From an uncultured Alphaproteobacteria bacterium (lineage in GTDB: Bacteria > Pseudomonadota > Alphaproteobacteria > Micropepsales > Micropepsaceae), in assembly GCA_903857685.1 (NCBI GenBank), contig CAIOFO010000124.1, positions 1 through 64,000 of the forward strand: 64,000 bases of DNA, in the 5' to 3' direction. Below are positions 4,644 to 54,452 of the stretch, one piece after another. The position numbers and the translations under genes were made by a program. Within the stretch, counting starts at the first letter, position 1. Every line of letters starts with the position of its first letter. The notes below the pieces were generated by a model. It searched no databases, was not told the origin of the DNA, and saw only the letters and a program-made list of their open reading frames with translations.

Positions 4644-4676
4644 TCTCCATCTGGCTGACCCGCCGGCCGCAAGCGC

Positions 4677-23054: not shown

Positions 23055-23062
23055 GGGCGGCC

Positions 23063-33063: not shown

Positions 33064-33528
33064 ATGCTGCGGCTTCAGATCAATGGCGAGGAACGCCTGG
33101 TCGGCGACGATGTCGATCCCAAGACCCCGCTTCTGTGGGTGCTGCGCGACCATCTGAGCCTTGTCGGCTCCAAGTTCGGCTGCGGCGTCGCCCAGTGCGG
33201 CGCCTGCACCGTGCATGTGGACGGCAAGCCGGTGCGTTCCTGCCAGCTCACGGTGGGCAATGTCGGCGCCAAGGCGGTCACCACCATCGAAGGCATCGGT
33301 AAAACCCCCAACGGCGCCAAGATCCAGGCCGCCTGGATGGAAATCGAAGTGCCCCAATGCGGCTATTGCCAGGCCGGCCAGATCATGTCGGCGACGGCGC
33401 TGCTCAACAGCACCCCCAGCCCAAGCGATTCCGACATAGACGCGGCGATGGCCGGTAATATCTGCCGCTGCGGCACCTATATCCGCATCCGCCAGGCGAT
33501 CAAGAACGCCGCTGCCAAGTCGGTTTAG
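33064..33528 (+). CDS. 2Fe-2S subunit of IorA-like Mo hydroxylase
   Basis: [25 protein letters not shown]...[14 protein letters not shown]. Confidence 0.96.
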
Positions 33529-33530
33529 CC

Positions 33531-34871
33531 ATGAAGACCTTTGGAATCGCGATTGCGGTTATCATCGTCATCGCGCTCGGCATTGCAGCATGGCTGCTGC
33601 TCATCCCGGGGCCCATCGCGTTCGCCAGCGGCTCCACGGTTGCGTTGTCGGATTACACCGGCGCCAATCCCACCGGCGTGCCGAAAGAACTGGCGCAGGC
33701 CGATGTGATCAAGCGGGGCGAATATCTCGCCCACGCCGCCGATTGCATCGCCTGCCACACCGCGCCGGGCGCGCCGGCCTATGCCGGCGGTTTCGCCTTC
33801 AATCTGCCGTTCGGAACGATGTATTCGACCAACATCACGCCCGACAAGGAAACCGGCATCGGCAACTACACCGACCAGCAGTTCCTCGATGCCCTGCACA
33901 AGGGGGTGCGCGCCGACGGCCAGCAGCTTTATCCGGCCATGTCCTATACGTCCTATGCCTACATGACCGATGCGGATGCGCTTGCGATCAAGGCTTATCT
34001 CTTCACCCTGCCCGCGGTGCATGCGCCCGCCAGGGAAAACAGGCTTTCCTGGCCCTTCAACCAGCGCGGCCTGATGGCGGCGTGGAATCTATTCTACAAA
34101 TCCGATGAACGTTTCCGCCCCAACCCCGCACAGAGCGCGGAATGGAATCGCGGCGCCTATCTGGCCGAGGCGATGGGGCACTGCGGCGAGTGCCACACCC
34201 CGCGCAACCTTGCCTATGCGCTGAACAACCGGAGCAAATTTGCCGGCGCCCTCACGGCGGGCTGGCGCGCCTACAATATCAGCGGCGACAAGGCTGCCGG
34301 CCTGGGCGACTGGACCGATGCGGATCTTTCCACCTATCTGTCCACCGGCCATGCCGATGGCCATGGCGGCTCGGCCGGTCCGATGGGCGAAGCCACGGAC
34401 AACAGCCTGACCTTCCTGACGCCGGGCGATATCCATGCCCTGGTGGTCTATCTGCGCAGCGTACCGGCCCAGCAAAGCGACCTGCCGCACACGATGGAGA
34501 CGCCCGCGCCCGCATCGCACCGAGAAGGCGCCACCGCGGGCATGGACCCGCGCGGCGAGCAGGTCTTCGCCGGGGCCTGCGCCGCGTGCCACGACTGGAC
34601 GGGCGTGAGCCCGACCAGCAAATACGCCACCCTGACCGGCGTGCGGGCGGTCAACGATCCGTCGGCCACCAATGTGGCGCAGACCATCATCAATGGCGTC
34701 AATCGCCAGACCGCCGAAGGCACGATCTTCATGCCGGGGTTCGGCGAAGCCTATTCCGATGACGACATCGCGGCCGTGTCAAACTACGTCACCACGCGCT
34801 TCGGCGCCCAGGGCGCCCATCTCACAGCAAATGACATCGCATCCCTGCGCAAGCAGGCCGCCCAACAATAG
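33531..34871 (+). CDS. triheme cytochrome c (alcohol/aldehyde dehydrogenase cytochrome subunit type)
   Basis: CIACHTAPG, CGECHTPRN, CAACHDWTG. Confidence 0.95.
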   Translation: MKTFGIAIAVIIVIALGIAAWLLLIPGPIAFASGSTVALSDYTGANPTGVPKELAQADVIKRGEYLAHAADCIACHTAPGAPAYAGGFAFNLPFGTMYSTNITPDKETGIGNYTDQQFLDALHKGVRADGQQLYPAMSYTSYAYMTDADALAIKAYLFTLPAVHAPARENRLSWPFNQRGLMAAWNLFYKSDERFRPNPAQSAEWNRGAYLAEAMGHCGECHTPRNLAYALNNRSKFAGALTAGWRAYNISGDKAAGLGDWTDADLSTYLSTGHADGHGGSAGPMGEATDNSLTFLTPGDIHALVVYLRSVPAQQSDLPHTMETPAPASHREGATAGMDPRGEQVFAGACAACHDWTGVSPTSKYATLTGVRAVNDPSATNVAQTIINGVNRQTAEGTIFMPGFGEAYSDDDIAAVSNYVTTRFGAQGAHLTANDIASLRKQAAQQ

Positions 34872-34899
34872 GCCAAACTCACTTTCCAGGAGGCACATC

Positions 34900-37179
34900 A
34901 TGCCCGCCAAGATCAACACCAGGTTTGCGCAGTCCGATGCCTATATCTCCCAGTTGATGCGCGACGTCAGGGACGTGCCGGCGCAAGGCGCCTTCCCGAT
35001 GGGACGGCGCACCTTCTTCAAGCTTGCCGGCGCCGGCGCCGCGGGTTTGGTGCTGGGCTTCCATCTGCCGGGCGAGGCATTTGCCGCCACGGCGCAGGCC
35101 GGCAAGGATCAGGCGATGAATGCCTTCATCCGCATCGCCCCCGACAACAGCATCACCATCTATTCCAAGGCGCCGGAAATCGGCCAGGGCATCAAGACCT
35201 CGTTCGGCCTCATCATCGCCGAGGAACTGGACGCCGACTGGAACCATGTCGTGATGGAGCAGGCGGAGATCAATCCGAAAGTCTATGGCAACCAGGGCGC
35301 GGGCGGTTCGACCTCGATCCCGCGCGCCTGGGACCAGCTGCGCCAGGCCGGCGCCGGCGCCAAGGCGATGCTGGTCGCCGCCGCCGCCAAGCAATGGAAG
35401 GTCGATCCGTCGCAGATCACCGCCAGGGATTCCATGCTGAGCCATCCCAGCGGCAAGAGCGCCACCTATGGTTCGCTGGCGATCGCCGCCGCGAATATGC
35501 CGGTGCCGGATCCCAAGAGCCTGAAGCTCAAGGCCCGCAGCGAATACCGCCTGCTCGGCCGCCGCCATCGCGGCGTGGACGACCCCAAGGTTGTCACCGG
35601 CCAGCCGCTGTTCGGCATCGATGTGCAGCTGCCCGACATGGTCTATGCCAGCTACACCAAATGTCCGGCGGCGGGCGGCAAGGTCAAATCCTTCAACGAT
35701 GCCGAGATCCGGGCGCTGCCCGGCGTGCTGGACTGTTTTGTCGTAGAGGGCACCGGCGTGCCGGCCGAAGTGATGCCGGGTGTCGCCATTGTCGCCAAGG
35801 ATACCTGGACGGCGTTCCAGGCCAAGAACAGGCTGAAAGTCGACTGGGACCTGAGCGAAGCCTCGAAGGATTCCACCACGGAATTTTCGGCCCGGGCGAA
35901 AAAGCTGGCCGCCAGCTTCCCCGGCAAGCCCGTGGTCGATATCGGCAATGTCGACAATGCCTTTGCCAATGCCGCAAAGACGGTGGAGGCCTATTACGAA
36001 TACCCCTTCGCCGCCCACGCCCCGCTGGAGCCGCAGAACACCACCGCGCACTGGCATGACGGCGTCATCGAAGTTTGGTCACCATCGCAACAGCCCAATC
36101 GCGGCCTGGCCAACCTGGCCAAGGTAACGGGGGTGAAGGAAGACAAGGTGGTGATCCACCAGACCCGCGTCGGCGGTGGCTTCGGACGCCGGCTGGTCAA
36201 TGACTATATGTGCGAGGCCGCTGCCATCGCGCTCAAGGTCAAGACCCCGGTCAAGCTGCAATGGACGCGGGAAGACGATTTCAACCACGATTTCTATCGC
36301 CCGGCCGGCTATCACCAGTTCAAGGGCGCCGTCGACAAGAATGGCAAGCTGGACGCCTGGCAGGAGCATTTCATCACCTTCACCGCCGACGGCAAGAAGG
36401 AAGCGTCAGGCGCCAACCTGACCGAGAATTTGAAATACTCCACCATCGCGCCCAATCTACGCCGCGGCACCACCATGATGCCGCTGGTCATTCCCACCGG
36501 AGCGTGGCGCGCGCCGGGCGACAATGCCCAGGTTTTCGCCAACCAGAGCTTCATGCATGAATTGTCGCTGACCGCCGGACGCGACCATGTCCAGTTCCTG
36601 CTGGATGCGGTGAACACCAGGGTGCCGGAACTGGCGCCCAAGGATCCCAAGACCGTCAACTTCAGTCCCGCCCGCGCCAGCGCCGTCATCAAGCTCTGCG
36701 CCGAGAAGGCGGGATGGGGCAAGACGCTGCCGCAGGGCAGCGGGCTGGGGCTGGCCTGGTGCTATTCCCATGCCGGCCATGTGGCGCAGGCGGTCGAACT
36801 CAGCGTCGACGCGAACAAGCGGATCACGATTCACAAGGTCACGGTGGTGATCGATGTCGGTCCCATTATCGACATGGCGGGGTCCGAGGCCCAGGCCCAG
36901 GGCGCCTCGACCGACGCCCTGTCCACCGCGATGGGACTGCAGATCAACATCGAGAATGGACGCATCAAGCAGCAGAACTACAACGACTATCCGACCCTGC
37001 GCATGCCCTTCGCGCCAAAGGTGATCGAGGCGCATTTCATCCAGTCGGACAATCCCCCCACCGGCATGGGCGAACCGGCCTTCCCGGCTTTCGCGCCGGC
37101 GCTGGGCAACGCCATCTTCTCCGCCACCGGGGAGCGGGTCCGCAGCCTGCCGCTTCGCAACCTGGGCTACTCGGTCTGA
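34900..37179 (+). CDS. Tat-targeted molybdopterin-binding subunit (IorB-like)
   Basis: MGRRTFFKLAGAGAAGLVLG; APEIGQGIKTSFGLIIAEELDADW; VGGGFGRRLVNDY; GMGEPAFPAFAPALGNAIFSATGERVRSLP. Confidence 0.95.
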   Translation: MPAKINTRFAQSDAYISQLMRDVRDVPAQGAFPMGRRTFFKLAGAGAAGLVLGFHLPGEAFAATAQAGKDQAMNAFIRIAPDNSITIYSKAPEIGQGIKTSFGLIIAEELDADWNHVVMEQAEINPKVYGNQGAGGSTSIPRAWDQLRQAGAGAKAMLVAAAAKQWKVDPSQITARDSMLSHPSGKSATYGSLAIAAANMPVPDPKSLKLKARSEYRLLGRRHRGVDDPKVVTGQPLFGIDVQLPDMVYASYTKCPAAGGKVKSFNDAEIRALPGVLDCFVVEGTGVPAEVMPGVAIVAKDTWTAFQAKNRLKVDWDLSEASKDSTTEFSARAKKLAASFPGKPVVDIGNVDNAFANAAKTVEAYYEYPFAAHAPLEPQNTTAHWHDGVIEVWSPSQQPNRGLANLAKVTGVKEDKVVIHQTRVGGGFGRRLVNDYMCEAAAIALKVKTPVKLQWTREDDFNHDFYRPAGYHQFKGAVDKNGKLDAWQEHFITFTADGKKEASGANLTENLKYSTIAPNLRRGTTMMPLVIPTGAWRAPGDNAQVFANQSFMHELSLTAGRDHVQFLLDAVNTRVPELAPKDPKTVNFSPARASAVIKLCAEKAGWGKTLPQGSGLGLAWCYSHAGHVAQAVELSVDANKRITIHKVTVVIDVGPIIDMAGSEAQAQGASTDALSTAMGLQINIENGRIKQQNYNDYPTLRMPFAPKVIEAHFIQSDNPPTGMGEPAFPAFAPALGNAIFSATGERVRSLPLRNLGYSV

Positions 37180-38082: not shown

Positions 38083-38111
38083 ACGGGCCCGGCTTTCTAA
38101 GCCGGGCCCGT
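38083..38111. terminator. bidirectional terminator-type hairpin between convergent genes
   Basis: ACGGGCCCGGCTT-TCT-AAGCCGGGCCCGT, perfect 13-bp arms; overlaps the stop codon of the minus-strand gene. Confidence 0.75.
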
Positions 38112-39032
38112 TGTCGTAACTGGCTCGCCGTCAGCCGTTTGCTTGCCGCCCGGGACTGTGAGCGTCTCCAGCCATTTGATGATCGCGCTCTGGTCCATGC
38201 TGTATCCCAGGCATGCTTCGGCCATGGCCAGCGAGTCCCTCGTGGTGGCGAGCAGCGGTGACACCATGCCGGCCGCGTCCGCCAACCGCTTCGCCAGCGC
38301 GACATTGGCATGGACGATTCCCAATTGCTGTCCGGTCTTGAACCGGCGAGAGGCCACCTGATCGCGCAGAATGTGCGACATCTCGGCCCCGCCCATCGCA
38401 TCGCACACATCCAGCAAATTGGCAGGTTCGAAGCCAAAATGGCTGCCGAGCCGGATTCCCTCGCTGGCGGCCATAAGCCGGACCGCCCGGAGATAGTCCG
38501 CGATCGCCGCAGCCGCCTGCGCGGAGCCGGCGGCGCCGGCCCGGATGATCCGCGCAGCCAGCGTTTCCAGGACAGGGCGGCAGCGCTCCACAGCGTCATC
38601 GGCGCCGCCGACAACCATGGTCAGCCGGCCCTCCCTGGCGTCCTCAGGCGTGCCGAAAGCAGGCGCATCCACCAGCTGAATGCCGCGCGCTTCCAGCTCC
38701 TTGGCCATGGCCACCGTTTCCAGGGGATCGGTGACGCCGATATCCATGATCAAGCCGTCTTTCTTGAACCCGGAGGCCAACCCTTCCCAGCCGAAAAAAA
38801 CGTCGCGCATCTCCGCGGCCGATGGCAGGGCGGTAATAACGATGTCGCACAATTGCGCCATCATGGCTGGCGATCCCAGGGACAGGCCGCCGAAGGTGCC
38901 CGTGAAGACGCGGGGTGTCTGCTCGTGGGTGTCGTAAACCATCAGATCGCCGAAGCCCGACCAGAGCAGACGCATGGCCGCCCGCGATCCGAAAGCGCCG
39001 ATTCCAATAATGCCGATTTTCAAAGCGGGCAT
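38097..39032 (-). CDS. NAD(P)-dependent oxidoreductase, 3-hydroxyisobutyrate dehydrogenase family
   Basis: KIGIIGIGAFGSRAAMRLLWSG; DIVITALPSAAEMRDVFFG; LVDAPAFGTPEDAREGRLTMVVGG. Confidence 0.9.
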   Translation of the reverse strand: MPALKIGIIGIGAFGSRAAMRLLWSGFGDLMVYDTHEQTPRVFTGTFGGLSLGSPAMMAQLCDIVITALPSAAEMRDVFFGWEGLASGFKKDGLIMDIGVTDPLETVAMAKELEARGIQLVDAPAFGTPEDAREGRLTMVVGGADDAVERCRPVLETLAARIIRAGAAGSAQAAAAIADYLRAVRLMAASEGIRLGSHFGFEPANLLDVCDAMGGAEMSHILRDQVASRRFKTGQQLGIVHANVALAKRLADAAGMVSPLLATTRDSLAMAEACLGYSMDQSAIIKWLETLTVPGGKQTADGEPVTTTGPA

Positions 39033-39075
39033 CGTGACCGTTCAAGCATCAGGAAATGTCCCGCGCGCGATTCTG

Positions 39076-39480
39076 TCAGGACTCTGTGAGTTTGAGGGTC
39101 TCATCGAGCAAGAATAGATCCGTCAGAAGCGCGCGCAAATGGATCGACGCATTGAGATTGTCAAGCATCTGCGAGCTGACGGCGGGCTGCTCCAGCACCA
39201 GACGGATGGCGGCACTGGCTTTCACGGCATCCTGCCGCACGACATCCAGAAAGTTCTGGGCGGCGGCCCCGGGCAATTTTGCCGCCGCGATCACGGCCAA
39301 AGCCTCGTTCGATTTCTGCAGATAATTTCGGATGCCGGCGCTCGACATATCCTCGTCATTGACGCGTCCCTGCGCGGCATAGGCCAGCATAAATTCATAG
39401 GTCTCTTCGATGATATCAATGGCCCCGACCAAGCCTCCGGGTGCGACATCCGTTGACACTATAAGTACTCCTCTGCTCAT
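39076..39480 (-). CDS. hypothetical helical protein
   Basis: 134-aa ORF of plausible composition in the same orientation as the Mo hydroxylase genes. Confidence 0.6.
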   Translation of the reverse strand: MSRGVLIVSTDVAPGGLVGAIDIIEETYEFMLAYAAQGRVNDEDMSSAGIRNYLQKSNEALAVIAAAKLPGAAAQNFLDVVRQDAVKASAAIRLVLEQPAVSSQMLDNLNASIHLRALLTDLFLLDETLKLTES

Positions 39481-39536
39481 GCGAACCGGCTCCCGGTTGC
39501 GAAAGCGCGGCGGGCGAAATCCGGAAGATGTTCCGG

Positions 39537-40160
39537 CTAGGCTTCTTCCTCGGCATTCCAGCGCTTGGGATCGAAGTGATCCTTATATTCCTTGGGCGTG
39601 ATCCATCCCCGGAACATGGAGCGCGTCAAGTGCCATTCGTCGGGACGGAGCGCGAAATAGACATGGATGATGATCATGGTGACCAGCGACATCGCGACAA
39701 AGTCATGCGCCGAATAGATCACGCCCCAGCTGCTGTCGCTGAACCAATATGGGTCACGCCGCCACCAGGGCGTGTCGATCTTGCGCAGCATGACCAGGCC
39801 CGATGCGATGCCGCTCAGGATAAGAACGGCAATCGCCAGGTGGTACAGCTTCTGGGCCAAATTGTATTTTCCCGGCCGGCCGCCGGAACCCAGATTTTGC
39901 AGATCCTGGCCGTCCACAACCATGGACATCGGCTTCTGGAAGAACAGCGCCCGGACGATGTGGAACAGCACCGCCACCGTCAGGACCAGTCCGGTCACCC
40001 AGTGGATCGCGAGCCATGCGAACTTCCAGCCGATGATGGGCAAGAGGGATGTCGCCAGCAGGGTCAGGATGCAGACCGCCATCACCCAATGATAGAGACG
40101 GTCCACCAGCTTGTGCCGCTGGATTTGGCCGGCTTGAACCGAGCCTGCATGCGAACTCAT
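39537..40160 (-). CDS. cytochrome b561-type membrane subunit (formate dehydrogenase gamma/hydrogenase b-type)
   Basis: KLVDRLYHWVMAVCILTLLATSLLP...IHWVTGLVLTVAVLFHIVRAL...YHLAIAVLILSG...AHDFVAMSLVTMIIIHVYFALRPDEWHLTRSMFRGWI. Confidence 0.9.
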   Translation of the reverse strand: MSSHAGSVQAGQIQRHKLVDRLYHWVMAVCILTLLATSLLPIIGWKFAWLAIHWVTGLVLTVAVLFHIVRALFFQKPMSMVVDGQDLQNLGSGGRPGKYNLAQKLYHLAIAVLILSGIASGLVMLRKIDTPWWRRDPYWFSDSSWGVIYSAHDFVAMSLVTMIIIHVYFALRPDEWHLTRSMFRGWITPKEYKDHFDPKRWNAEEEA

Positions 40161-40202
40161 TTCAATATGTCCTCGTGGCACGCGCGCCCAGAGCGCAATT
40201 AT

Positions 40203-40349
40203 TTAATGGGATGGCACGATCCATTTGAAAATGGCATGGGCCAGGACGGCGGCCACGCCAGCCCCCACGAACCACTGCAGCAGATCAAAGGACGCGCCGA
40301 TGATGACCTTGTCACCGTACACGGAGGTCGCATACCGGAAAAGCTCCAC
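40203..40349 (-). CDS. 48-aa single-TM small protein (GTG start)
   Basis: Reverse-strand reading (M)ELFRYATSVYGDKVIIGASFDLLQWFVGAGVAAVLAHAIFKWIVPSH*; fits the gap between the FAD subunit and cytochrome b. Confidence 0.55.
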   Translation of the reverse strand: MELFRYATSVYGDKVIIGASFDLLQWFVGAGVAAVLAHAIFKWIVPSH

Positions 40350-40360
40350 AATGATCCCCT

Positions 40361-41359
40361 TCAGGCCGTGGCGTTGCGGACGGCGCGCGTGACGAGACTC
40401 GCCATCAGCGGAATCTTGAACCCGTTATAGTTCAGCGGCCGCGCATCGCGCGTGGAGGACTGGCCGGCCAGGGTCGCGGTGCCTTCTTCCAGGGCCTTGC
40501 CCTGAATGATGCCTTCGACCTGGGTCAGGCGGTGCGGGACGGCACTGACGCCGCCAACGACGATACGGCTCTCCCGGATCGCGCCGTTCTGAACCGAGAT
40601 CGCTGCCGCGACATTGACCAGGGGGAAGTCCCACACATTCCGGTCCGCAACCTTCTCGAAGTAGAAATTCTTGCCGGCCCAGGCGCTGGGCAGGCGGATG
40701 GTGGTCAGGATTTCCTCGGGCTTGGCGGCCGTCAAATGCAGGATGTCCACATTCGGGCCGACGAAGAATTCTTCCGCCCCGATCACCCGCTGGCCGCTCG
40801 AACTTTGCAGCACGAATTTGGCGTCCAGCGCGGTCAGGGCGGGGGCGCCGTCGGACGACGTCACCGCCACGCAGCGATCCGCGCCGAACAGCGCATGTTC
40901 GCGGTTGATGCCTTCGGGCGTATCGGCAAAGCAGGTGTTGCCGCCTGCGCGATAGCAAGGCAGGCCATAACGGAAATAGAGGCAGCGCGCATTTTGCGAG
41001 GCATTGCCGCCGATCGTGCCGTGATTGCGGATCTGGGGGCTGGCGACATGGGACACCGCATCCGCCAACAGCCGGTATTTCGCCTTGATGATGGGGTTGT
41101 TCTCGATCTCGCTCAGGGTGGTGAGCGCCCCGATTTCGACGCCGTCAGGCGTCTCCTTGATGCCCTTCATTTCGGCGATGCCGGTCAGATCGATCACGGC
41201 CTGGGGGCGTACGATCCGATCCTTGAACCAGTCCAGGCTGTCATAGCCGCCGGCCATCTTCCAGGCGTCTTTCCCGAAACTGTCGAGAAGCGAAAACGCA
41301 TCCTTGAGCTGGGCAGGCTGATACAGCTCGAATGGGGCCATAATATCTTTGACAATCAT
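40361..41359 (-). CDS. FAD-binding subunit of XDH/CODH-family Mo hydroxylase
   Basis: FELYQPAQLKDAFSLLDSFGKDAWKMAGGYDSLDWFKDR; ATIGGNASQ-type GTIGGNASQNARCLYF. Confidence 0.94.
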   Translation of the reverse strand: MIVKDIMAPFELYQPAQLKDAFSLLDSFGKDAWKMAGGYDSLDWFKDRIVRPQAVIDLTGIAEMKGIKETPDGVEIGALTTLSEIENNPIIKAKYRLLADAVSHVASPQIRNHGTIGGNASQNARCLYFRYGLPCYRAGGNTCFADTPEGINREHALFGADRCVAVTSSDGAPALTALDAKFVLQSSSGQRVIGAEEFFVGPNVDILHLTAAKPEEILTTIRLPSAWAGKNFYFEKVADRNVWDFPLVNVAAAISVQNGAIRESRIVVGGVSAVPHRLTQVEGIIQGKALEEGTATLAGQSSTRDARPLNYNGFKIPLMASLVTRAVRNATA

Positions 41360-41372
41360 GACGCTTGCTCCC

Positions 41373-43775
41373 TCAGACCGTGTTGACCTGAAGGGGTTTA
41401 TGCGCCGGCGGGCGCCCCGACAGGTGATTGAGGATCATATCCGCTGAAACCGGTGTGCGGTTGAACAGGTGGCCGCCCAGCGCATCGGCAATCGCCGATG
41501 TGATGCAGGATGCGCCCGAACCAAGCGCCGGCTCACCCACGCCCTTGATGCCCAGCGGATGATGCGGGTCAGGCTTCTCGACGGCCTGCCACTGGATATT
41601 GGGCGGGATATCGAGATAGGTGGGTACCTTGCTCTGGTGGAAACCCATCGCCGCCGGGATGCCCAGCTTGGGGTCATAAATATGGCGCTCAAGATGCGCC
41701 ATGCCGATTCCCAGGATCTGGCCGCTGGCGATCTGGTGGCCAAGGCCAAGCGGAAAAAGCACGGTGCCGACATCAACGACGCTAAAGCACTCCTTGATCT
41801 CCACGACGCCGGTTTCGGTGTCGATTTCGACCTCGGCCAAGTTGCAGGTCAGGCCCGGCGTGGTGCCCACGCGCGGCAGCTTGTCCTTTGCCGCCGCGAT
41901 AAGCCCGGTGCCGACGATCATGGCGACCGCGCTCTTGGTGATGGGATTGAGTTCGTCGGGCACTTCCTTGCCGGAATATTTGCCGCCCAGCTGAACAGCC
42001 TTCTGCGCCGCCTGCTGGTAGGTGATCGATTTGCCGCCGCTCTTGCTGACGACCTTTTCGTCACCCAGGACATAGTCTTCCGGCTTGCCGCCCAGCATCT
42101 GCGCGGCGATGTCGGTTAGCTTGTCCTTCATGTCCATCGCGGCGGCATACATAGTGCGCGACTGGGTTGAGGCCGTGAGGCTGCCCGCCTGCGGCGAGTT
42201 GAAGGGCAGGCCGCGCCGCGTGTCACCGCGCTCGACGATCGCGTTTTCCCAATTCACATTGAGCAAATCGGCCGCAACACGGGCGGTCGAGTAATGGGAA
42301 TGGGTGCCGAGGTTGCCCACGCCGGTATGGATGTGGAGCTTGCCGTCGGTGGTAATGCGCACCAGCCCGTCGAAGCCGTTCGAGCCGGCGGAGTGAAAGC
42401 CCTGGCCGATGCCGATGCCGGTCACCTTGGTGCCGTTCTTCTGGCCGGATCTTTTCTTGCGCTCTTCCCAATTGCCGAGGATCTTGAGCTTCGCCAGCGC
42501 GTCCTTCTGGAAGGCGCTGGTCAGAGGGCCGCGATCCTGGCCGATCTTGCCGTCGGAATCCGGGGCATTGATGATGCGAATGTCGATCCGGTCCATGTTC
42601 AACTGGCGCGCCGCCTGGTCGATCATCGGCTCGATCACGGAAACGAATTGATTCTCGCCGGGACCGCGCTGGGCGCCAACAGGCACGGTGTTGGTCAGAA
42701 CCGGAACCGTGCGGAAGCGCACGGCATCGGGCTGGTAGAGCAGAGTCAGGGCGCCGCCCGCGGCGCGGAAATCGCCAGCTGTCGCCATGGGACCGCTTTC
42801 CTGCACGACATAGAGGTCGGCGGCCACCATTTTGCCATTCGCGGCAAAACCCATCTTGACATAACCCTGGAAGCCGGGCCGGGCGCTGCCGATGCCATAT
42901 TCCTCATGACGGGAAATCCGGTGCATGACCGGCCGGTTGATCTTCTTGGACATCAACGCGGCGATGGCCATGTTGGGATAGCCGGGAATCTTGCTGCCGA
43001 AGCCGCCGCCGCAAAATTCGGCGAGGAAAACCAGCTGGTCCGGCTTGATGCCGATATAGCGGGAAATATTCGCTATGGCCGCCGTGTGGCTTTGGTTGGA
43101 TCCATAGAGAAAGCACTTGCCGCCCTGCCAGTAGGCGAAGGCGCTGCGCGCTTCCATGCAGTTATGCGAATAGGTGGCCGTGACGAAGTTTTCCTCGACG
43201 ATCACCTTGGCCTTCTTGAAGCCCGCATCGATGTCGCCATAGGACCATTCCTCGGCCGGACGGCCGAGCGGCAGCTTGGTCTCGCCGGCGGTGGCGAAAT
43301 CGGCGCCATCCCATTTGACCGTCTGGAGCTTGATCTGGCCGGCCGCGACATTGCCTCCCGAGCGCGCATTGGGGCCGCCCGGGAAAAGGCTCTCCAGCGG
43401 GTCCACGACATGCGGCAATTCCTGGAAATCAATCTTGATGGCTTCGATGGCAGCCACCGCGATTTCTTCGCTCTCGGCCGCAACCGCCAGAATCGGTTCG
43501 CCGACATAGAAGGTTTCATCCTTGGCGAAAATGCCCTGGGCCGGCGGCGGAAACTGGGGCACGTCATCGGCGGTCAGGATGCCAAGCACGCCCTTCATCT
43601 TGAGGGCGGCAGAGGTGTCGATGCTGCGAATCTTGGCGTGGGGAATGGGGCTGGTCAGGGATTTGCAGAACACCATGCCGTCCGCCCGAAAATCCTCGAC
43701 ATATTTCGCGCGGCCGGTGACCTTGGCCTCGATGTCGGTCACCACAAAGTCTTTGCCGATCAGTTTATGGTCCAT
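41373..43775 (-). CDS. molybdopterin-binding catalytic subunit, XDH/aldehyde oxidase family
   Basis: GRAKYVEDFRADGMVFCKSLTSPIPHAKIRSID; AEFCGGGFGSKIPGYPN; RGPGENQFVSVIEPMID; GIKGVGEPALGSGASCITSAIADALG. Confidence 0.96.
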   Translation of the reverse strand: MDHKLIGKDFVVTDIEAKVTGRAKYVEDFRADGMVFCKSLTSPIPHAKIRSIDTSAALKMKGVLGILTADDVPQFPPPAQGIFAKDETFYVGEPILAVAAESEEIAVAAIEAIKIDFQELPHVVDPLESLFPGGPNARSGGNVAAGQIKLQTVKWDGADFATAGETKLPLGRPAEEWSYGDIDAGFKKAKVIVEENFVTATYSHNCMEARSAFAYWQGGKCFLYGSNQSHTAAIANISRYIGIKPDQLVFLAEFCGGGFGSKIPGYPNMAIAALMSKKINRPVMHRISRHEEYGIGSARPGFQGYVKMGFAANGKMVAADLYVVQESGPMATAGDFRAAGGALTLLYQPDAVRFRTVPVLTNTVPVGAQRGPGENQFVSVIEPMIDQAARQLNMDRIDIRIINAPDSDGKIGQDRGPLTSAFQKDALAKLKILGNWEERKKRSGQKNGTKVTGIGIGQGFHSAGSNGFDGLVRITTDGKLHIHTGVGNLGTHSHYSTARVAADLLNVNWENAIVERGDTRRGLPFNSPQAGSLTASTQSRTMYAAAMDMKDKLTDIAAQMLGGKPEDYVLGDEKVVSKSGGKSITYQQAAQKAVQLGGKYSGKEVPDELNPITKSAVAMIVGTGLIAAAKDKLPRVGTTPGLTCNLAEVEIDTETGVVEIKECFSVVDVGTVLFPLGLGHQIASGQILGIGMAHLERHIYDPKLGIPAAMGFHQSKVPTYLDIPPNIQWQAVEKPDPHHPLGIKGVGEPALGSGASCITSAIADALGGHLFNRTPVSADMILNHLSGRPPAHKPLQVNTV

Positions 43776-43778
43776 TTC

Positions 43779-44405
43779 TTATGCCTCCTGCGACGCGCGC
43801 ATGACCGCTTTGAGATAATGATCGTAGGCGCCGCATTTGCAGAGGTTGCCCGACATGCCGCGCCGCGCCTCATCCTGCGTCGGTTTGGGATTGCGATTGA
43901 GCAGCGCCACCGCGGAAACCACCTGGCCCGAGGTGCAGAAGCCGCACTGGGGGCCCAGCTCGTCAATCATGGCCTGCTGCACCTTGTGCAGCCCGCCCGT
44001 GGGACCCGCGATACCCTCAATGGTGACGATTTTGCGGTTGCGCACGCTTTGAGTCAGCGTCGAGCAGGAATAGGAGGTGACGCCGTCAAGCATGACCGTG
44101 CAGGCGCCGCATTCGGCGCGGTCGCAGCTGACCTTTGTGCCGGTCAAGCCCAGCTTGTTGCGGATCGTGTACGCCAGGGTTTCGTGCGGCGCCACATCGA
44201 CGCGGCGGTCACGGCCATTGACGTTCAGCGTGATCAACCGCTCGACCGCACCGGCGGCCGGCCGCCGGGCCGTGCGCTCATAAACGACATAGCCAACTGC
44301 GGAAACGGCCACGCCCGACACAATGACGCCTTTGATGAATGAGCGCCGTGTCGTTCGCAGAGAGGGTTGCCCGGGTTCAGTCTTGTTGGAATCGGCGTCT
44401 GACAT
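43779..44405 (-). CDS. Tat-targeted 2Fe-2S subunit of Mo hydroxylase
   Basis: TRRSFIKGVIVSGVAVSAVGYVV; CDRAECGACTVMLDG; CGFCTSGQV...GNLCKCGAYDHYLKAV. Confidence 0.96.
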   Translation of the reverse strand: MSDADSNKTEPGQPSLRTTRRSFIKGVIVSGVAVSAVGYVVYERTARRPAAGAVERLITLNVNGRDRRVDVAPHETLAYTIRNKLGLTGTKVSCDRAECGACTVMLDGVTSYSCSTLTQSVRNRKIVTIEGIAGPTGGLHKVQQAMIDELGPQCGFCTSGQVVSAVALLNRNPKPTQDEARRGMSGNLCKCGAYDHYLKAVMRASQEA

Positions 44406-44623: not shown

Positions 44624-45142
44624 TCAATGCTGGCTGCTGTAGCGGTGGTGAAGATCGGTACTGAGCCCAAAGGCCGCCTGCAAATCCTTATTTGAGGCCA
44701 AAGATTGCAGTGCAGCATCGCGGCACGATTCGGCATCGGATGCGCCATTGTCCTGGGCCAGGTCGCACCAGGCAAAAGCCTGGACATAACTTTGTGCGAC
44801 ACCCTGGCCATAAAAATAAAGTGTGCCCAGCAGCATCTGGCCCTCGGGCTGACCGTGCTCGGCCGCCTTGCGAGACCAATAGGCCGCTTTTCCGTGATCA
44901 ACCGTGACGCCGAAACCGCGATGATACAGGAAGCCCAGGCTGGCCTGAGATGGCGCGTCCTCACGCTGGGCCAGCGGCAGCCAGATCTGCATCGCCTTCT
45001 TGAAATCACCGCTGTTATAGGCCGACAACCCGCTGCGAAAGAGCGAATCGGCCGGGGCGGCGCTCAGGGAGCCAATGACAAGACAGCAGAATAAACCTGC
45101 AAGAATGGTTCGATGCCTTGGCGCAGGGCTTCCGAGCCGCAT
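44624..45142 (-). CDS. Sel1-like repeat secreted protein
   Basis: GDFKKAMQIWLPLAQREDAPSQASLGFLYHRGFGVTVDHGKAAYWSRKAAEHGQPEGQMLLGTLYFYGQGV. Confidence 0.9.
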   Translation of the reverse strand: MRLGSPAPRHRTILAGLFCCLVIGSLSAAPADSLFRSGLSAYNSGDFKKAMQIWLPLAQREDAPSQASLGFLYHRGFGVTVDHGKAAYWSRKAAEHGQPEGQMLLGTLYFYGQGVAQSYVQAFAWCDLAQDNGASDAESCRDAALQSLASNKDLQAAFGLSTDLHHRYSSQH

Positions 45143-45248: not shown

Positions 45249-46220
45249 CTAAACCGCATGGGCCTTGATCACGGCCCAAGCGGTTTTTCCGGATGCAAGC
45301 TTCAGTTCACGCGCCGCTTCCGCCGTCACCCGCGCCAATAGTGGGCCGGCCTGCGTTTCCAGCTCCGCCAGCACACTGCCGTCATCCTCGGACCGCAGGC
45401 CCGTGATGCGGCCTTCCAGGATATTGCGGGCCGAAATCGCCTCCGGCCGGCGCGCCGCCAGCAGCACATGGTCGGCGCGCAGCCACAGGCCCTGAACCAT
45501 CTCGTCCTTGGCGCTGCGCAAGGCGCTGGCAGGCAGCACCGCGCCGATATCGCGCCGGTCGAGCAGCGCCTGGAAGTCGGGCCGGCGCGCCACATCCGCG
45601 AACGCGCCTTGCGCCACCACCTTGCCATCCGCCAGCGCGACCAGATGCGAGGCCAGGGCGGCGGCATCGTCGATATTGTGCGTCACCACCAGCATGGGAA
45701 TCCTGTAGCGCTGATGCGCCGTCCGCAGCACCTGGAGAAAGGCGCGCCGCCGCGCGCCGTCCAGGGCGGCGAAAGGCTCATCCAGCAGCAGGAAATCCGG
45801 CGCCGCCACCAGGGCGCGGGCCAGGGCGACGCGGCTTTTCTCGCCGCCCGACAGATTGCCCACCGGGCGGTCCAGCAAATTTGCGATGTCGAAAAACCCC
45901 GCCACTTCGGCGATTTCAAATCGCGCCGGAGCGCGGCGGCTGGCATAGGCAAGATTGCCGCGCACCGTCAGGTGCGGAAACAGCCGCGCGTCCTGGAACA
46001 CCAGGCCGAAGCCGCGCCGGTGCGGCTTGATCTGCCCGCAAGACGCCCCGTTCAGGGTGATGCGGCCTGACGCGGCTTTCAGTCCGGCCAGCGCCGACAG
46101 CAGGGTGGATTTTCCCGACCCCGAGGGACCGAACAAGGCCGTGATGCCGTCCGGCGCGGTGAAGCGCGCATCGAGCATGAAGTTGCCCTGGCGCAGCGCG
46201 ATGTCGGCTTCCAGCGTCAT
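45249..46220 (-). CDS. modC: molybdate ABC transporter ATP-binding protein
   Basis: GPSGSGKSTLLSALAG, NLSGGEKSRVALARALVAAPDFLLLDEPFAALD and C-terminal TOBE-like domain. Confidence 0.96.
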   Translation of the reverse strand: MTLEADIALRQGNFMLDARFTAPDGITALFGPSGSGKSTLLSALAGLKAASGRITLNGASCGQIKPHRRGFGLVFQDARLFPHLTVRGNLAYASRRAPARFEIAEVAGFFDIANLLDRPVGNLSGGEKSRVALARALVAAPDFLLLDEPFAALDGARRRAFLQVLRTAHQRYRIPMLVVTHNIDDAAALASHLVALADGKVVAQGAFADVARRPDFQALLDRRDIGAVLPASALRSAKDEMVQGLWLRADHVLLAARRPEAISARNILEGRITGLRSEDDGSVLAELETQAGPLLARVTAEAARELKLASGKTAWAVIKAHAV

Positions 46221-46903
46221 CCCGCCAGCCGCTTGCGCGCCCGGCGCTGCAGGAATTCCGCGGCGACCAGGCCGCACATCGCCACGGTGAAGGAAATCAG
46301 CGCCAGCCGCACCGCCTCAGCCTCACCGCCCGGTTCCTGCAGCACGGCATAGATCGCCAGCGGCAGGGTCTGGGTCTGGCCGGGAATATGGGCGGCGAAG
46401 GTGATCACGGCGCCGAACTCGCCCATGGCGGCGGCAAAGGCGGTGACCGTGCCCGCCAGAATGCCCGGCCCCGCCAGCGGCAGGGCGATGGATAGAAACC
46501 GGTCCCAGGGTCCGGCGCGCAAGACCGCGGCGGCCTCCAGCAGCCGCGCATCGGTGGCCTCGAATGCCAGGCGGATGCTGCGCACCAGCAGGGGAAAGGT
46601 CATCACCGCCGTGGCCAGCGCCGCGCCGGCGGTGGTGAAGGCCAGGTGAATGCCGAACATCTGGTCCAGCAAGCCGCCCACCGGACCGCGCCGGCCAAAC
46701 ACGATCAGGAGCACTAAGCCCACCAGCACCGGCGGCAGGATCACCGGCAGATGGGTAAGGCCGTCCAGAATGATGCGGCCGGGCATTTGCGGGCGGGAGA
46801 GGAAAAACGCCATCGCGATGGCGAAGGGCAGCGACCAGAGAAGCGCGCGCGACGCCACCGCGAAGCTGGTCGCAAGAATCTGCATTTCCACCGGCGACAT
46901 CAC
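46217..46903 (-). CDS. modB: molybdate ABC transporter permease
   Basis: LTHLPVILPPVLVGLVLLIVFGRRGPVGGLL; EFGAVITFAAHIPGQTQTLPLAIY. Confidence 0.96.
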   Translation of the reverse strand: MMSPVEMQILATSFAVASRALLWSLPFAIAMAFFLSRPQMPGRIILDGLTHLPVILPPVLVGLVLLIVFGRRGPVGGLLDQMFGIHLAFTTAGAALATAVMTFPLLVRSIRLAFEATDARLLEAAAVLRAGPWDRFLSIALPLAGPGILAGTVTAFAAAMGEFGAVITFAAHIPGQTQTLPLAIYAVLQEPGGEAEAVRLALISFTVAMCGLVAAEFLQRRARKRLAG

Positions 46904-48144
46904 GGCCCATCCAGCGGCAGCACATCCACCGGCGCACCGGCCTCGGTGGCGGGCGCGCCCGGCTTCATGCGGATCAGGGCATTGGCGGAGGCAAAAACCG
47001 ACAGCAGCGAGGAGTCCTGCTTTTCAAAAGCGCGCACGGTCAGTTGCCCGTCCCCGTCATCGGACAGGCGCGCGCGCAGAAAATGTTCGCGCGGGCCATT
47101 GGCGGGCAAAGCCTCCACCAGCCGCGCCCGGCGCATCGTCACGCAGGCCCCAGGATCGCGGCCCAGCATCGTTTCGATCAGGGGGCGCAGGAAAAGCACG
47201 GCGCAGACCAGCGCCGAGGCGGGATTGCCGGGCAGCCCCAGCACCGCGCCATGGCCGGTGTGGCCGAACCAGGTCGGCTTGCCGGGGCGAAGCTGGACTT
47301 TCTCCACCGCCAGCTTGAGGCCCAGCCGCAGCAGCGCCGGGCGGGCATGGTCATGATCGCCCACCGAGGCGCCGCCGATGATCACCAGCAGGTCGCTGTC
47401 CTTCAGTCCCTGCTCTGCCGCCCGCGCAATGGCGTCCACATCATCCTTTTGCAATTGCAGGCGCTGCGGCTGGCCGCCCCAGGCGCGCACCAGGGCGGCA
47501 ATGCCATGGGTGCCAGAATCGAAAATCTGGAAGGGGCCCGGCGCCGCGCCCGGCTCAGCCAATTCATCGCCGTCGCTGAGGATGGCGATGCGCGGCCGCC
47601 GCACCACCGGCAACTGCGCCGCGCCCGCCGCCGCCGCCAGCGCCAGCGCCACGCCGTCCAGCCTGCGTCCCACCTCAAGCAATGCTGTTCCGGCGGAAAA
47701 ATCCATCGCCTGGGGGCGGATATACTGGCCGGACCTGGCCTGCGGCACCGTCACGCTGTCGCCGTCGCGCTTTGCCTCTTCCTGGATCACCACCGCATCG
47801 GCGCCGTCCGGAATGGCCGCGCCGGTGGAGATCCGCACCGTGCCGCCTTTCTCCCACGCGCCGGCAAAGCCGCGTCCCGCCGCCGATTCTCCGATCAGTT
47901 TCAGGCGGCCGGGCGTATCGGCGGCGGCAAGCGCATAGCCGTCCATTTCCGAAATTGCGAAAGGCGGCTGATCGCGGCTGGCGAGAATGGGGACGGCCAG
48001 CACGCGGTCGAGCCCTTCGGCCAGTGTCACGGTTTCGTCATCCAGCCGCGCGACGCCGGACAGCATCGCGGCGCGGGCCGCGGCGACCGTGGACAAAATG
48101 GCGGGGGCAAAATCCCGCTTGGCATGGGGGCTGCTGTCTGACAC
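46900..48144 (-). CDS. moeA: molybdopterin molybdenumtransferase MoeA
   Basis: SEMDGYALAAADTPG; GTVRISTGAAIPDGADAVVIQEE; GGASVGDHDHARPAL; GLPGNPASALVC; GTG start at 48142-48144. Confidence 0.95.
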   Translation of the reverse strand: MSDSSPHAKRDFAPAILSTVAAARAAMLSGVARLDDETVTLAEGLDRVLAVPILASRDQPPFAISEMDGYALAAADTPGRLKLIGESAAGRGFAGAWEKGGTVRISTGAAIPDGADAVVIQEEAKRDGDSVTVPQARSGQYIRPQAMDFSAGTALLEVGRRLDGVALALAAAAGAAQLPVVRRPRIAILSDGDELAEPGAAPGPFQIFDSGTHGIAALVRAWGGQPQRLQLQKDDVDAIARAAEQGLKDSDLLVIIGGASVGDHDHARPALLRLGLKLAVEKVQLRPGKPTWFGHTGHGAVLGLPGNPASALVCAVLFLRPLIETMLGRDPGACVTMRRARLVEALPANGPREHFLRARLSDDGDGQLTVRAFEKQDSSLLSVFASANALIRMKPGAPATEAGAPVDVLPLDGP

Positions 48145-48167
48145 GTTATTCCCGATTGTAGCTAACG
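48144..48167. promoter_or_regulatory. candidate ModE-type operator CGTTATTCCCGATTGTAGCTAACG
   Basis: Inverted CGTTA...TAACG over 24 bp in the 54-bp divergent moeA/modA gap. Confidence 0.4.
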
Positions 48168-48198
48168 CTGCAACAAACGCTAGGCCGGGAGAATAAGC

Positions 48199-48978
48199 TT
48201 GTCCATATTTGCCCCCTTTATCCGGGGTTTCCTGCCGGCCTTGGCGGGCCTGGCGATTTTGGCGGCGCCGCCGGCGCTGGCGCAGGGCGCCGGTCCGACC
48301 GTCTTCGCGGCCTCCTCGCTCACCGACAGCATGAAGGCGGTGGCCGCCGCCTATGAGACCAGGACCGGGACAAAAGTGACCCTGTCCTTCGGCGCCTCCA
48401 ACATCTTGGCGCAGCAGATCGACCAGGGCGCCGGCGCCGACATCTATATGTCGGCCGATACCGACTGGATGGATTTCCTGCAGAAGGCCAACCGCATCGC
48501 GGTGGAGACGCGGCGCAACTTGCTCGGCAACCGGCTGGTGTTGATTGGCGGCGCTGGGAGCAAGCCCGTGACCATTGCGCCCAAATTCGATCTTGCCGGG
48601 GCGCTGGGCGGCGGGCGGCTGGCGCTGGCCGATCCCAATTCCGTGCCGGCGGGAAAATACGGCAAGGCGGCGCTGACCGCGCTGGGGGTGTGGGACAGTG
48701 TCGCCGACAAGATCGCGCCGGCGGAAAATGTCCGCGTCGCGCTGGAATATGTCTCGCGCGGCGAAGCCCCCTACGGCATCATCTATGAGACCGATGCCCG
48801 GGTGGACCCCGGCGTGCATGTATTGGGCGTGTTCCCGGAAAATACCCATCCCGCCATTGTCTATCCCACCGCCCTCACCCGCACGGCTTCGGCATCGGCC
48901 AGGGACTTCCTGGCCTTCCTGTCGGGGCCGCAGAGCAAGGCGATCTTCGAGAAAGCGGGCTTTTCGCTGCTGAACTAG
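48199..48978 (+). CDS. modA: molybdate-binding periplasmic protein
   Basis: [61 protein letters not shown] start proposed. Confidence 0.95.
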
Positions 48979-49454
48979 CGCGGGCGGATATAGTCGCCGG
49001 ACTTGCCGCCGCGTTTTTCCAGCAGCATCACGCCGCCGATCACCATGGCGCGGTCGGCCGCCTTGAGCATGTCGTAGATGGTCAGGCACGCCACCGACAC
49101 CGCCACCAGCGCTTCCATCTCCACCCCGGTCTGGCCGGTGCTTCTGGCGCGGGCGGTAACGATGAGGGCGGAATTTTTCTCGTCGCTGGCGATGGTGAGC
49201 GACACGCTGCTGAGCGGCAACTGGTGGCAGAGCGGGATCAGCTCCGCCGTGCGCTTGGCCGCCATGATGCCGGCGAACTCGGCGGCGGCGCGCACGCTGC
49301 CTTTCTTGGCATCGCCGGACAGTGCCAGCGCCAGGGTTTCGGGCTTCATGCTGACGCGGCCTTCCGCCACCGCTTCGCGGGCGGTGACGGGCTTGTCCGC
49401 CACATCCACCATGCGGGCGGCGCCGCTCTTGTCCAGGTGGGTGAGTTCGGCCAT
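48975..49454 (-). CDS. moaC: cyclic pyranopterin monophosphate synthase MoaC
   Basis: [72 protein letters not shown]. Confidence 0.97.
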
Positions 49455-50006
49455 TCAGCGCTCCAGGAAACGCGGCATCAGCTCGACCAGGTTGCAGGGC
49501 CGGAAACGGCTGTCGAGCTGCCAGCGTATTACCTTGTCCCAGCCATCCTTGCAGGCGCCCCCCGAACCGGGCAGCGCGAAAATCATGGTGCTGCCCGCAA
49601 TGCCGGCGCAGGCGCGCGACTGGATGGTGGAAAGCCCCACGCTCTGGAAGCTGGTCATGTGCCAGACGGTCTCGAAGCCCTCGATCACCTTGTCGAACAG
49701 GGGCCGTACCGCTTCGGGGGTGACATCGCGGCCGGTCAAGCCGGTGCCGCCGGTGGAAATCACCACGTCAATGCCGGGATCGGCGATCCATTTCTGCAAC
49801 TGGACCTGGATTTCTTCCACACTGTCCTTCACCCGGGCGCGCGCCGCCAGCACGTGATGGTCGCGCGCCACCCGTTCCGCCAGCAGCTTGCCGGAGGTGT
49901 CGCTTTTCTCGTCGCGCGTGTCGGACACGGTCAGCACCGCAATATTGAGGCTGCGGAACGGCAGCGTCTCGGACAATTTTCCGGCGCCGGGCGGGGTATC
50001 GCTCAC
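49455..50006 (-). CDS. moaB: molybdopterin adenylyltransferase-type MoaB
   Basis: IAVLTVSDTRDEKSDTSG; DVVISTGGTGLTGRDVTPEAVRPLFDK; ALPGSGGACKDGW. Confidence 0.95.
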   Translation of the reverse strand: MSDTPPGAGKLSETLPFRSLNIAVLTVSDTRDEKSDTSGKLLAERVARDHHVLAARARVKDSVEEIQVQLQKWIADPGIDVVISTGGTGLTGRDVTPEAVRPLFDKVIEGFETVWHMTSFQSVGLSTIQSRACAGIAGSTMIFALPGSGGACKDGWDKVIRWQLDSRFRPCNLVELMPRFLER

Positions 50007-51872: not shown

Positions 51873-52202
51873 ATGTCGTTTCCCTCCACCGAAATAGACG
51901 TGCTGGAAACCGCCGCCGGATGGCTGGCGGAGGGTCATGGCGTGGCGCTGGCCACCGTGGTGCGGACATCGGGTTCGGCGCCGCGCCAGGCCGGCAGCCA
52001 TATCGCCATTCGCGATGACGGGCTGTTCGCCGGTTCGGTGTCGGCCGGTTGTGTCGAAGGCGTGATCATCGAGCAGGCGCAAACCGCCATGGCCGAGGGC
52101 AAGCAGCGCAATTTTGTTTTCGGCGTCAGCGATGACGGCATCCTGGGTCTGGGTCTCACCTGCGGCGGCGAGATCGAGATCCTGGTCGAGCCGATCCTCT
52201 GA
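51873..52202 (+). CDS. XdhC/CoxI N-terminal-domain protein
   Basis: [55 protein letters not shown]. Confidence 0.93.
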
Positions 52203-52203
52203 C

Positions 52204-53490
52204 ATGCGCCGGGCGATGCTGGAACAATTGCTGGCGATGCGGCAAGGCGGCCGTCCCGTCATCCGCGCCCTGGATGTGGAAAACGGCGAAGAAAAACTGA
52301 TTGACCCGGCCACCGATATATCGCCGCTGGGCCGGGCCGCCGCCCGCGCCCTGAGGGAAGATGCCAGCCAGCGCGTCACGCTGGGGAACCGCAACTGGTT
52401 CCTGACGGTCTACAACACGCCCTGGGAACTGGTGATCATCGGCGCGGTGCATATCGCCCAGGCGCTGGCCAGGCTGGGTGCGGCGATGGGCTATCGCGTG
52501 CGGGTGATCGATCCGCGCGGCGCCTATGCCGCCCCGGAACGTTTCGCCGGCGTGCGCGTGATCCAGAGCTGGCCCGAGGACGCCCTGGCCACTGAGCCAC
52601 TGACGGCGCGCAGCGCGTTGATCGCCTTGTCGCATGACATCAAGCTGGACGATCCCGCGCTGGCGGCGGCGCTGCGCTCGCCCGCCGGCTATATCGGCGC
52701 ACTGGGCTCGGTGCGCACCCATGCCAATCGCCTGGACCGGCTGGGCGCGCTGGGATTCAGCCAAGACGAATTGGCGCGCATTCACGGCCCGGTCGGACTT
52801 GCCATCGGGGCGCGCAGCCCCGGCGAAATCGCCATCGCCATCCTGGCACAGCTGGTGCGGCTGCGCCGCAAATCCACGCCCCGCATCGGCGGCGTGGTGC
52901 TGGCCGCCGGCCTGTCCCGCCGCATGGGACGCAACAAGCTGCTGGCGGAGCTGGACGGCAAGCCGCTGTTGCGCCATGCGGTGGAAGCGGCGCTGGCCAG
53001 CCGGCTCGATCCGGTGATCGTGGTGACCGGCCATGACGAAGCGGGCATCCGCAAGGCGCTGAGCGGCTTGAATGTGGTTTTCGCCCATAATCCGCGTTTC
53101 GCCGATGGCCTCAGCACATCGTTGCAGGCCGGCATCCGGGCTGTGCCCGGCGATTGCGACGGCGCCCTGGTGCTGCTGGGCGACATGCCCGGCATCACGG
53201 CGGACCTGATCGACCGCACCATCGCCGCTTTCGACCCGGCCCAGGGCCGCACCATCTGTGTTGCCGCAAAAAGCGGCAAGCGCGGCCATCCGGTTTTGTG
53301 GGGACGTCAATTTTTCGCCGAAATTGAAAGTCTTGGCGGTGACGCCGGGGCGCAGTCGCTGATGGCCCGGCATGCCGCCCAGGTCGGCGAGATCGAAAGT
53401 GCGGACGACGCGCCATTCGCCGATATTGATACCCCCGAGGCGCTGGCTGCCTATGCCGGCCGGTCGCTGGACGGCGCCGAAACCCTGTAA
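52204..53490 (+). CDS. fusion of XdhC C-terminal Rossmann domain with MocA-like molybdopterin nucleotidyltransferase
   Basis: [30 protein letters not shown]...[18 protein letters not shown] joined to [32 protein letters not shown]...[10 protein letters not shown]. Confidence 0.94.
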
Positions 53491-53564
53491 CGAAACCTCC
53501 CGCCGGACGAAGAGCCTTAAGGACAAGCGGCGAAGGCCGGGTTAGATTGGGCGGGGATGACCGC

Positions 53565-54452
53565 ATGACGATTCAAAGCGATGCCGCGCCGACGCCGCAT
53601 ATCCCGGAACGGATTCGCACCGCCCTGGGCCTGAGTCCATCCGGGCCGCATTATGCCTTTTACCGCCACAAGGGCCTGGTGCGCGCCGCGCACTGGATCA
53701 ACGCCCTTTGCCTGGCAATCCTGTTCATGAGCGGGCTCAACATCTTCAATGCCCATACCGCGCTTTACTGGGGCAACAGTTCGATTTTCGCTCATCCCAT
53801 CCTGGTGCTGGGCACTTATTACAATGACGATGGCGCGGTGACGCGCGGCGTCACCACCATCTTCGGCCATGAGTTCACCACCACCGGCCTGTTCGGCGCT
53901 TCGAACGAAGATGGCGTGCTCACCGGGCGCGGCTTTCCCAGCTGGGCCACCCTGCCCGGCCCCAACTGGCTGGCGATGGCGCGGCAATGGCATTTCGCCT
54001 TTGCCTGGCTCCTGGTGTTCAACGCCGTTGTTTTTTTCATCTACGGCATCTGGAGCCGGCATTTTGCCCGCGACCTTGCGCCGACGGCCAAGGACCTCAC
54101 CCATCTGCCGCGGGAAATCGCCGACCACGCGCGGCTGAAATTTCCCCATGGCGAGAAAGCCCGGCACTACAACGCCCTGCAGAAGCTGGCCTATTGCTTC
54201 GTGATTTTCATATTGGGGCCATTGATCGTGCTGACCGGGCTGACCATGTCGCCGACCATGGACAGCGCCTTTCCCCTGCTGGAAATTTTCGGCGGCCGGC
54301 AATCGGCCCGCACCATTCATTTCCTCTGCGCCTTCGGCTTTTTCGGATTCTTCCTTGTCCATGTCGCGATGGTGATCCTGTCGGGCAGCTGGAACAATCT
54401 GCGCTCCATGATCACCGGCTGGTATGTCATCCGCGGAAGGAAGCCGTCATGA
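53565..54452 (+). CDS. cytochrome b/b561-type membrane protein
   Basis: RAAHWINALCLAILFMSGLNIF...WHFAFAWLLVFNAVVFFIYG...ARTIHFLCAFGFFGFFLVHVAMVILSG. Confidence 0.9.
   Translation: MTIQSDAAPTPHIPERIRTALGLSPSGPHYAFYRHKGLVRAAHWINALCLAILFMSGLNIFNAHTALYWGNSSIFAHPILVLGTYYNDDGAVTRGVTTIFGHEFTTTGLFGASNEDGVLTGRGFPSWATLPGPNWLAMARQWHFAFAWLLVFNAVVFFIYGIWSRHFARDLAPTAKDLTHLPREIADHARLKFPHGEKARHYNALQKLAYCFVIFILGPLIVLTGLTMSPTMDSAFPLLEIFGGRQSARTIHFLCAFGFFGFFLVHVAMVILSGSWNNLRSMITGWYVIRGRKPS

Follow-up and report, generated by a model that had tools for sequence, protein, structure and literature searches.

The window analyzed here, a stretch of 64,000 nucleotides from an uncultured Alphaproteobacteria bacterium of the Micropepsaceae (contig CAIOFO010000124.1), carries on its minus strand (38097-44405) an operon for a molybdenum enzyme of the xanthine oxidase family and a membrane cytochrome b. 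It probably encodes a membrane-bound, periplasm-facing molybdo-hydroxylase similar to PaoABC of E. coli, which would leave the cytoplasm by hitch-hiking on the twin-arginine translocation (Tat) signal of one subunit and would be docked on a quinone reductase of the FdnI type. All seven genes listed in an earlier sequence-only reading of this DNA are present in the order given there, according to open reading frame and Pfam domain annotation. From 5' to 3', they encode the iron-sulfur (FeS), molybdenum (Mo) and flavin (FAD) subunits, a mini-protein of 48 residues, cytochrome b, a small helical protein (hyp134) and a Rossmann protein:

43779..44405, minus strand: FeS subunit, 208 residues, two [2Fe-2S] sites (PF00111, Fer2; PF01799, Fer2_2)
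44288..44405, minus strand: Tat signal of the FeS subunit, probably also its N-terminal membrane anchor, residues ~1-40 (from the sequence)
41373..43775, minus strand: Mo subunit, 800 residues, xanthine oxidase family (PF01315, Ald_Xan_dh_C; PF02738, MoCoBD_1; PF20256, MoCoBD_2)
40361..41359, minus strand: FAD subunit, 332 residues (PF00941, FAD_binding_5; PF03450, CO_deh_flav_C)
40203..40349, minus strand: mini-subunit, 48 residues, one transmembrane helix (8-member alignment, hydropathy)
39537..40181, minus strand: di-haem cytochrome b of the FdnI type (PF01292, Ni_hydr_CYTB)
39076..39480, minus strand: hyp134, conserved small helical protein (AlphaFold2 helical bundle)
38097..39032, minus strand: Rossmann protein, beta-hydroxyacid dehydrogenase family (PF03446, NAD_binding_2; PF14833, NAD_binding_11)

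The genes are separated by 3, 13, 11, 21, 56 and 43 bp, and such short gaps fit a single transcription unit. The probable starts of cytochrome b (ATG 40160) and hyp134 (GTG 39459) lie inside the longest open reading frames, each behind a Shine-Dalgarno-like sequence.

The FeS subunit begins with MSDADSNKTEPGQPSLRTTRRSFIKGVIVSGVAVSAVGY, a Tat-type signal with the motif TTRRSFIKG, whose twin arginines are invariant across 8 aligned FeS sequences. Inspection of the sequences revealed no leader peptide on the Mo subunit, as had been proposed, and none on the FAD subunit either. The FeS subunit is thus alone in having a signal, an arrangement also seen in E. coli PaoABC, which makes the hitch-hiker export suggested by the sequence-only reading the natural interpretation; the three subunits would cross the membrane together. 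In the alignment, examined by eye, no obvious A-x-A cleavage site was seen in the FeS subunit of the window or its nearest kin, and such a site is present in those of loci L008, L009 and L018. In a locus from Gemmatimonadetes (L010:4293-5045), a lipobox-like FAGC (by eye) follows the Tat signal of the FeS subunit; because of it, a lipid may anchor this subunit, in a locus that lacks the cytochrome.

The Fer2/Fer2_2, FAD_binding_5 and MoCoBD domains together with the catalytic Glu (motif GVGE) place the enzyme in the xanthine oxidase (molybdo-hydroxylase) family. The Mo subunit also contains the loop GGGFGSK. Its best match in the PDB is the alpha subunit of 4-hydroxybenzoyl-CoA reductase (HBCR), the beta subunit of which is matched by the FAD subunit, and the large subunit of a solved aldehyde dehydrogenase (8gy3) matches the Mo subunit weakly. 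The FAD subunit carries a four-cysteine insert of the [4Fe-4S] type (C126, C135, C143 and C163), which the sequence-only reading did not include. These cysteines are invariant in ten sequences and have aligned counterparts in E. coli PaoB. A [4Fe-4S] cluster in this subunit should therefore belong to the electron chain.

The cytochrome b proved FdnI-like, as had been supposed. Its residues H31, H60, H159 and H173 align with the haem ligands H18, H57, H155 and H169 of FdnI and are invariant in eight family members; the KYxxxQ segment of FdnI is retained. The AlphaFold2 model (pLDDT 76) has a sole significant fold match in the PDB, FdnI (1kqf_C, E 5e-6), the next matches being superoxide oxidase and hydrogenase cytochrome b at ~0.1, and among PDB sequences it is likewise FdnI alone that is matched. 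With the curated model of the formate dehydrogenase gamma subunit the protein scores 45.5 bits against a cut-off of 115.85; it is FdnI-like, and it is not a formate dehydrogenase gamma subunit. Two loops specific to this cytochrome family, PIxGxKFxW and KIDTPxWxRxP, are conserved on the side of haem bP. In FdnI, haem bP faces the periplasm and quinone is reduced near the cytoplasmic side. If this topology holds, both loops would be exposed on the periplasmic side, the position expected of a docked enzyme.

The mini-protein has a single hydrophobic helix, with a hydropathy peak at residues 27-45, and the invariant residues R5, G12, G18, D22, A30 and H38 (8-member alignment); one His lies in the helix. 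No Pfam family matched it above the cut-off, and the matches found were weak chance ones. By analogy with formate dehydrogenase-N, the mini-subunit may take the place of the transmembrane helix of FdnH.

These components could be combined as follows. The Mo, FAD and 2x[2Fe-2S] subunits would fold and take up their cofactors in the cytoplasm, aided by an XdhC-MocA fusion protein encoded nearby and perhaps by hyp134, and the signal of the FeS subunit alone would then take the whole trimer through Tat. On the periplasmic side, the cytochrome b of the FdnI type and the one-helix mini-subunit would serve as its docking site. The proposed electron path leads from the substrate to Mo, on through both [2Fe-2S] clusters and FAD to the [4Fe-4S] cluster in the FAD subunit, then by way of haem bP and haem bC to quinone, which would be reduced near the cytoplasmic side.

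The sequence-only reading had named conservation of the gene order as a check, and a non-conserved order as one of two grounds for refutation; the order FeS-Mo-FAD-mini-cytochrome b-hyp134 does recur, in eight loci (the window, L006-L009 and L018-L020). In L006 it is seen from the Mo gene onward, where the contig begins, the FeS gene being off the contig. The loci include metagenome-assembled genomes labelled Hyphomicrobiales and Acetobacteraceae. The same order in relatives with 54-80% identity in the Mo subunit implies that the cluster is not due to chance. Among 385 genomes sampled across the class, five carry the gene for the Mo subunit (E 1e-130), and precisely these five also carry that for hyp134 (E 0.001); a phylum-wide sample of 399 genomes returned only the window's own match. 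All relatives of the Mo subunit in plasmid records were below 60% identity (best rows ~30%). An orphan Mo subunit of the same clade (L011:8908-11412) adjoins a gene of the alcohol dehydrogenase family, and no FeS or FAD partner was found for it in the 17-kb locus.

Several observations weigh against the proposed complex. PaoC and the Mo subunit of the window share only 24% identity, no neighbour fixes the substrate, and the enzyme can exist without the membrane module: locus L021 (genome G343) has FeS-Mo-FAD-hyp134, with neither cytochrome b nor mini-subunit found in this genome (~93% complete), and L010 has FeS-Mo-FAD only. An exported trimer could also deliver its electrons elsewhere in the periplasm (to cytochrome c, azurin or free quinone), with the cytochrome b serving another purpose or being optional. 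Such a route would agree with L021 and L010, with the cytochrome c genes nearby in the window, and with the 2014 description of PaoABC, the exported enzyme of this family that has been studied best, in which the physiological electron acceptor was unidentified (PMC3958847). It is nevertheless unlikely, given that the cytochrome b and mini-subunit genes lie between those for the FAD subunit and hyp134 in eight loci. Moreover, L021 and L010 nest in the tree among cytochrome-bearing members (the placement of L021 is well supported, that of L010 moderately), and this nesting suggests that cytochrome b and the mini-subunit were lost in both.

Electron flow could be reversed, so that quinol, by way of cytochrome b, would supply a Mo enzyme that acts as a reductase and resembles HBCR, and the PDB matches of the Mo and FAD subunits to its alpha and beta subunits point in this direction. 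However, HBCR uses cytoplasmic CoA esters and low-potential ferredoxin, quinol is too weak a reductant, and subunits of the FdnI type normally reduce quinone. HBCR itself was rejected, all three subunits being far below the curated cut-offs (alpha 316.5 versus 994.55, beta 168.6 versus 404.55 and gamma 154.9 versus 257.8 bits), and reversed flow is very improbable. Slightly less probable still is that the twin-arginine motif is a relict anchor and that the enzyme remains on the cytoplasmic face and contacts the cytochrome there, in the manner of NarGH and NarI. The lack of a clear signal-peptidase site in the FeS subunit of the window would suit this arrangement, and NarG retains a remnant Tat signal, which is bound by NarJ (PMC10609526). 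Against it stand the precedent of PaoA and the full Tat motif kept in relatives, several of which have A-x-A sites, L010 having its lipobox-like FAGC. The PaoABC-like exported enzyme docked on the FdnI-type quinone reductase is the preferred interpretation.

As for the identity of the enzyme, the description "XDH-type" in the sequence-only reading holds for the fold family and fails for xanthine dehydrogenase itself. In xanthine dehydrogenases, a purine-binding Glu follows GGGFGGK. The window has GGGFGSKIPGY, no relative has Glu at that place, and the scores are below the NCBIfam cut-offs for xanthine dehydrogenase. Aerobic CO dehydrogenase (form I) was rejected as well, its active-site loop AYRCSFR being absent. 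Xanthine and CO are thus unlikely substrates, judging by these motifs. The curated PaoA and PaoC families do not include the window proteins (139.9 versus 322 bits and 231.9 versus 1180 bits, respectively). The GGGFGSK loop is also present in a solved aldehyde oxidase (5y6q). An aldehyde, oxidized to its acid, is the most likely substrate, with a chance that is perhaps even.

The predicted structure of hyp134 is a helical bundle (AlphaFold2, pLDDT 84.6). At the default threshold it matches no Pfam family, the fold search gave no significant match in the PDB, and the profile search against PDB sequences gave chance matches only. Because hyp134 persists without the cytochrome in L021, a role with the catalytic trimer, as a maturation factor or accessory, is favoured. 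Together with the mini-protein it makes up two conserved protein families that have no Pfam model and seem not to have been reported before; the conservation of both was missed in the sequence-only reading.

The Rossmann protein, initially taken for an NAD-binding dehydrogenase, does belong to that fold family by its domains; however, it is unlikely to function as a beta-hydroxyacid dehydrogenase. The catalytic-lysine segment AAKICNN of human HIBADH aligns with AAAAIAD, and all 5 syntenic copies of the same type lack the lysine. L018 carries a more distant homologue at the locus, in which the lysine is kept. The protein was not found at the L019, L020 and L021 loci and is thus not part of the core. 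The usual SGG motif reads FGT, and the protein is conserved in five loci.

Further genes around the operon are concerned with molybdenum and its cofactor, apart from a Sel1-repeat gene:

44624..45142, minus strand: Sel1-repeat protein with a signal-like N-terminus, just upstream of the FeS gene (PF08238)
45249..50006, minus strand: molybdate transport and cofactor genes modC, modB, moeA and moaB-like, operon neighbours
52114..53490, plus strand: XdhC-MocA fusion (PF13478 and PF12804)

Sel1-repeat proteins are also encoded upstream of the FeS gene in L009:7703-8167 (tblastn 50%) and L012:1936-2427 (tblastn 70%); an association of this gene with the operon is possible. In L019 a larger Sel1 protein is encoded, on the downstream side.

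Beyond the modC to moaB-like block lie moaA and the XdhC-MocA fusion, the genome's sole XdhC_C match. Its best model is the MocA model TIGR03310, with a score below the cut-off of that model; the domains indicate a likely sulfuration/insertion chaperone and cytidylyltransferase. The operon contig of L007 also carries moaA and the XdhC-MocA fusion. MocA-type enzymes produce the cytosine dinucleotide form of the Mo cofactor. This form has been reported for PaoABC (PMC3958847). Since other xanthine-oxidase-family genes of the genome draw on the same cofactor supply, the context is supportive and not specific.

Other redox systems are found elsewhere in the window. Directly after XdhC-MocA (53547-55216, plus strand), a second b561-type cytochrome (PF01292) adjoins a sulfite-oxidase-type molybdopterin protein (PF00174), a further pair of Mo enzyme and b cytochrome. 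Two more xanthine-oxidase-family systems (22458-25282 and 33064-37179, plus strand) have a layout like that of isoquinoline oxidoreductase (IorAB), with cytochrome c genes near. At 2599-5720 (minus strand), an NrfD-type membrane protein, a 4Fe-4S ferredoxin-like protein and a multihaem cytochrome c stand in a row resembling a respiratory membrane complex. A pyrroloquinoline quinone (PQQ)-dependent dehydrogenase followed by cytochrome c is encoded at 27120-29653 (minus strand); matches to such dehydrogenases number 11 in the window genome and 27-32 in two genomes of the same genus. PQQ alcohol dehydrogenases were considered as obligate aldehyde-supplying partners and rejected: they occur around L009 and are abundant in the genus, but G392 and G357 have no match.

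Among known systems, E. coli PaoABC (YagTSR) is similar in having three subunits, of which the 2x[2Fe-2S] subunit alone bears a Tat signal, an XdhC-type chaperone and the same four cysteines in its FAD subunit, PaoB. PaoA shares 40% identity with the FeS subunit of the window, with the Tat motifs aligned. In contrast to the window operon, paoABCD is not flanked by genes for a cytochrome b, the mini-subunit or hyp134. Ternary Tat hitch-hiking of PaoABC has been demonstrated (PMC4273604), so the architecture called little-described in the sequence-only reading is already known as regards export of the trimer. The pairing of an FdnI-type subunit with a xanthine-oxidase-family enzyme was not found described in the literature searched, from which most subscription journals and preprints were missing, and to this extent the novelty stands for the module and its mini-subunit.

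Quinone coupling by other means is also known. The xanthine-oxidase-family trimer of the Mo-containing CO dehydrogenase (Mo-CODH, CoxMSL) reaches the quinone pool via CoxG (PMC13240472). The window system would resemble it as a trimer of this family feeding quinone, and differs in the lack of the AYRCSFR motif. CoxG, furthermore, is not a cytochrome. Acetic acid bacteria possess the membrane aldehyde dehydrogenase AldFGH (PMC8102297). Membrane-bound aldehyde oxidation would be the common feature here. AldFGH employs c-type haems, while no CXXCH motif occurs in the operon proteins of the window.

Formate dehydrogenase-N shares with the window the fold of its FdnI subunit (1KQF chain C) and all four haem histidines. 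The partners of FdnI are FdnG and FdnH, whereas the window cytochrome is paired with a xanthine-oxidase-family enzyme, has ~24-29% identity with FdoI/FdnI (the nearest matches in the search of plasmid records) and belongs to a family with its own loops. This suggests that a module typical of formate dehydrogenases has been recruited by an unrelated molybdoenzyme family. In this clade the operon itself encodes a candidate acceptor, and quinone coupling could therefore be tested by gene removal. A more far-reaching view, which is put forward only tentatively, is that of a new class of respiratory complex, in which a dedicated one-helix subunit replacing the transmembrane helix of FdnH would link the xanthine-oxidase-family trimer to a quinone reductase of the FdnI type. 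In this view hyp134 would be a new type of factor in the maturation or proofreading of molybdo-hydroxylases exported by Tat, kept even where the cytochrome is lost. Each half of such a complex, the exported trimer and the FdnI-type cytochrome, is already known.

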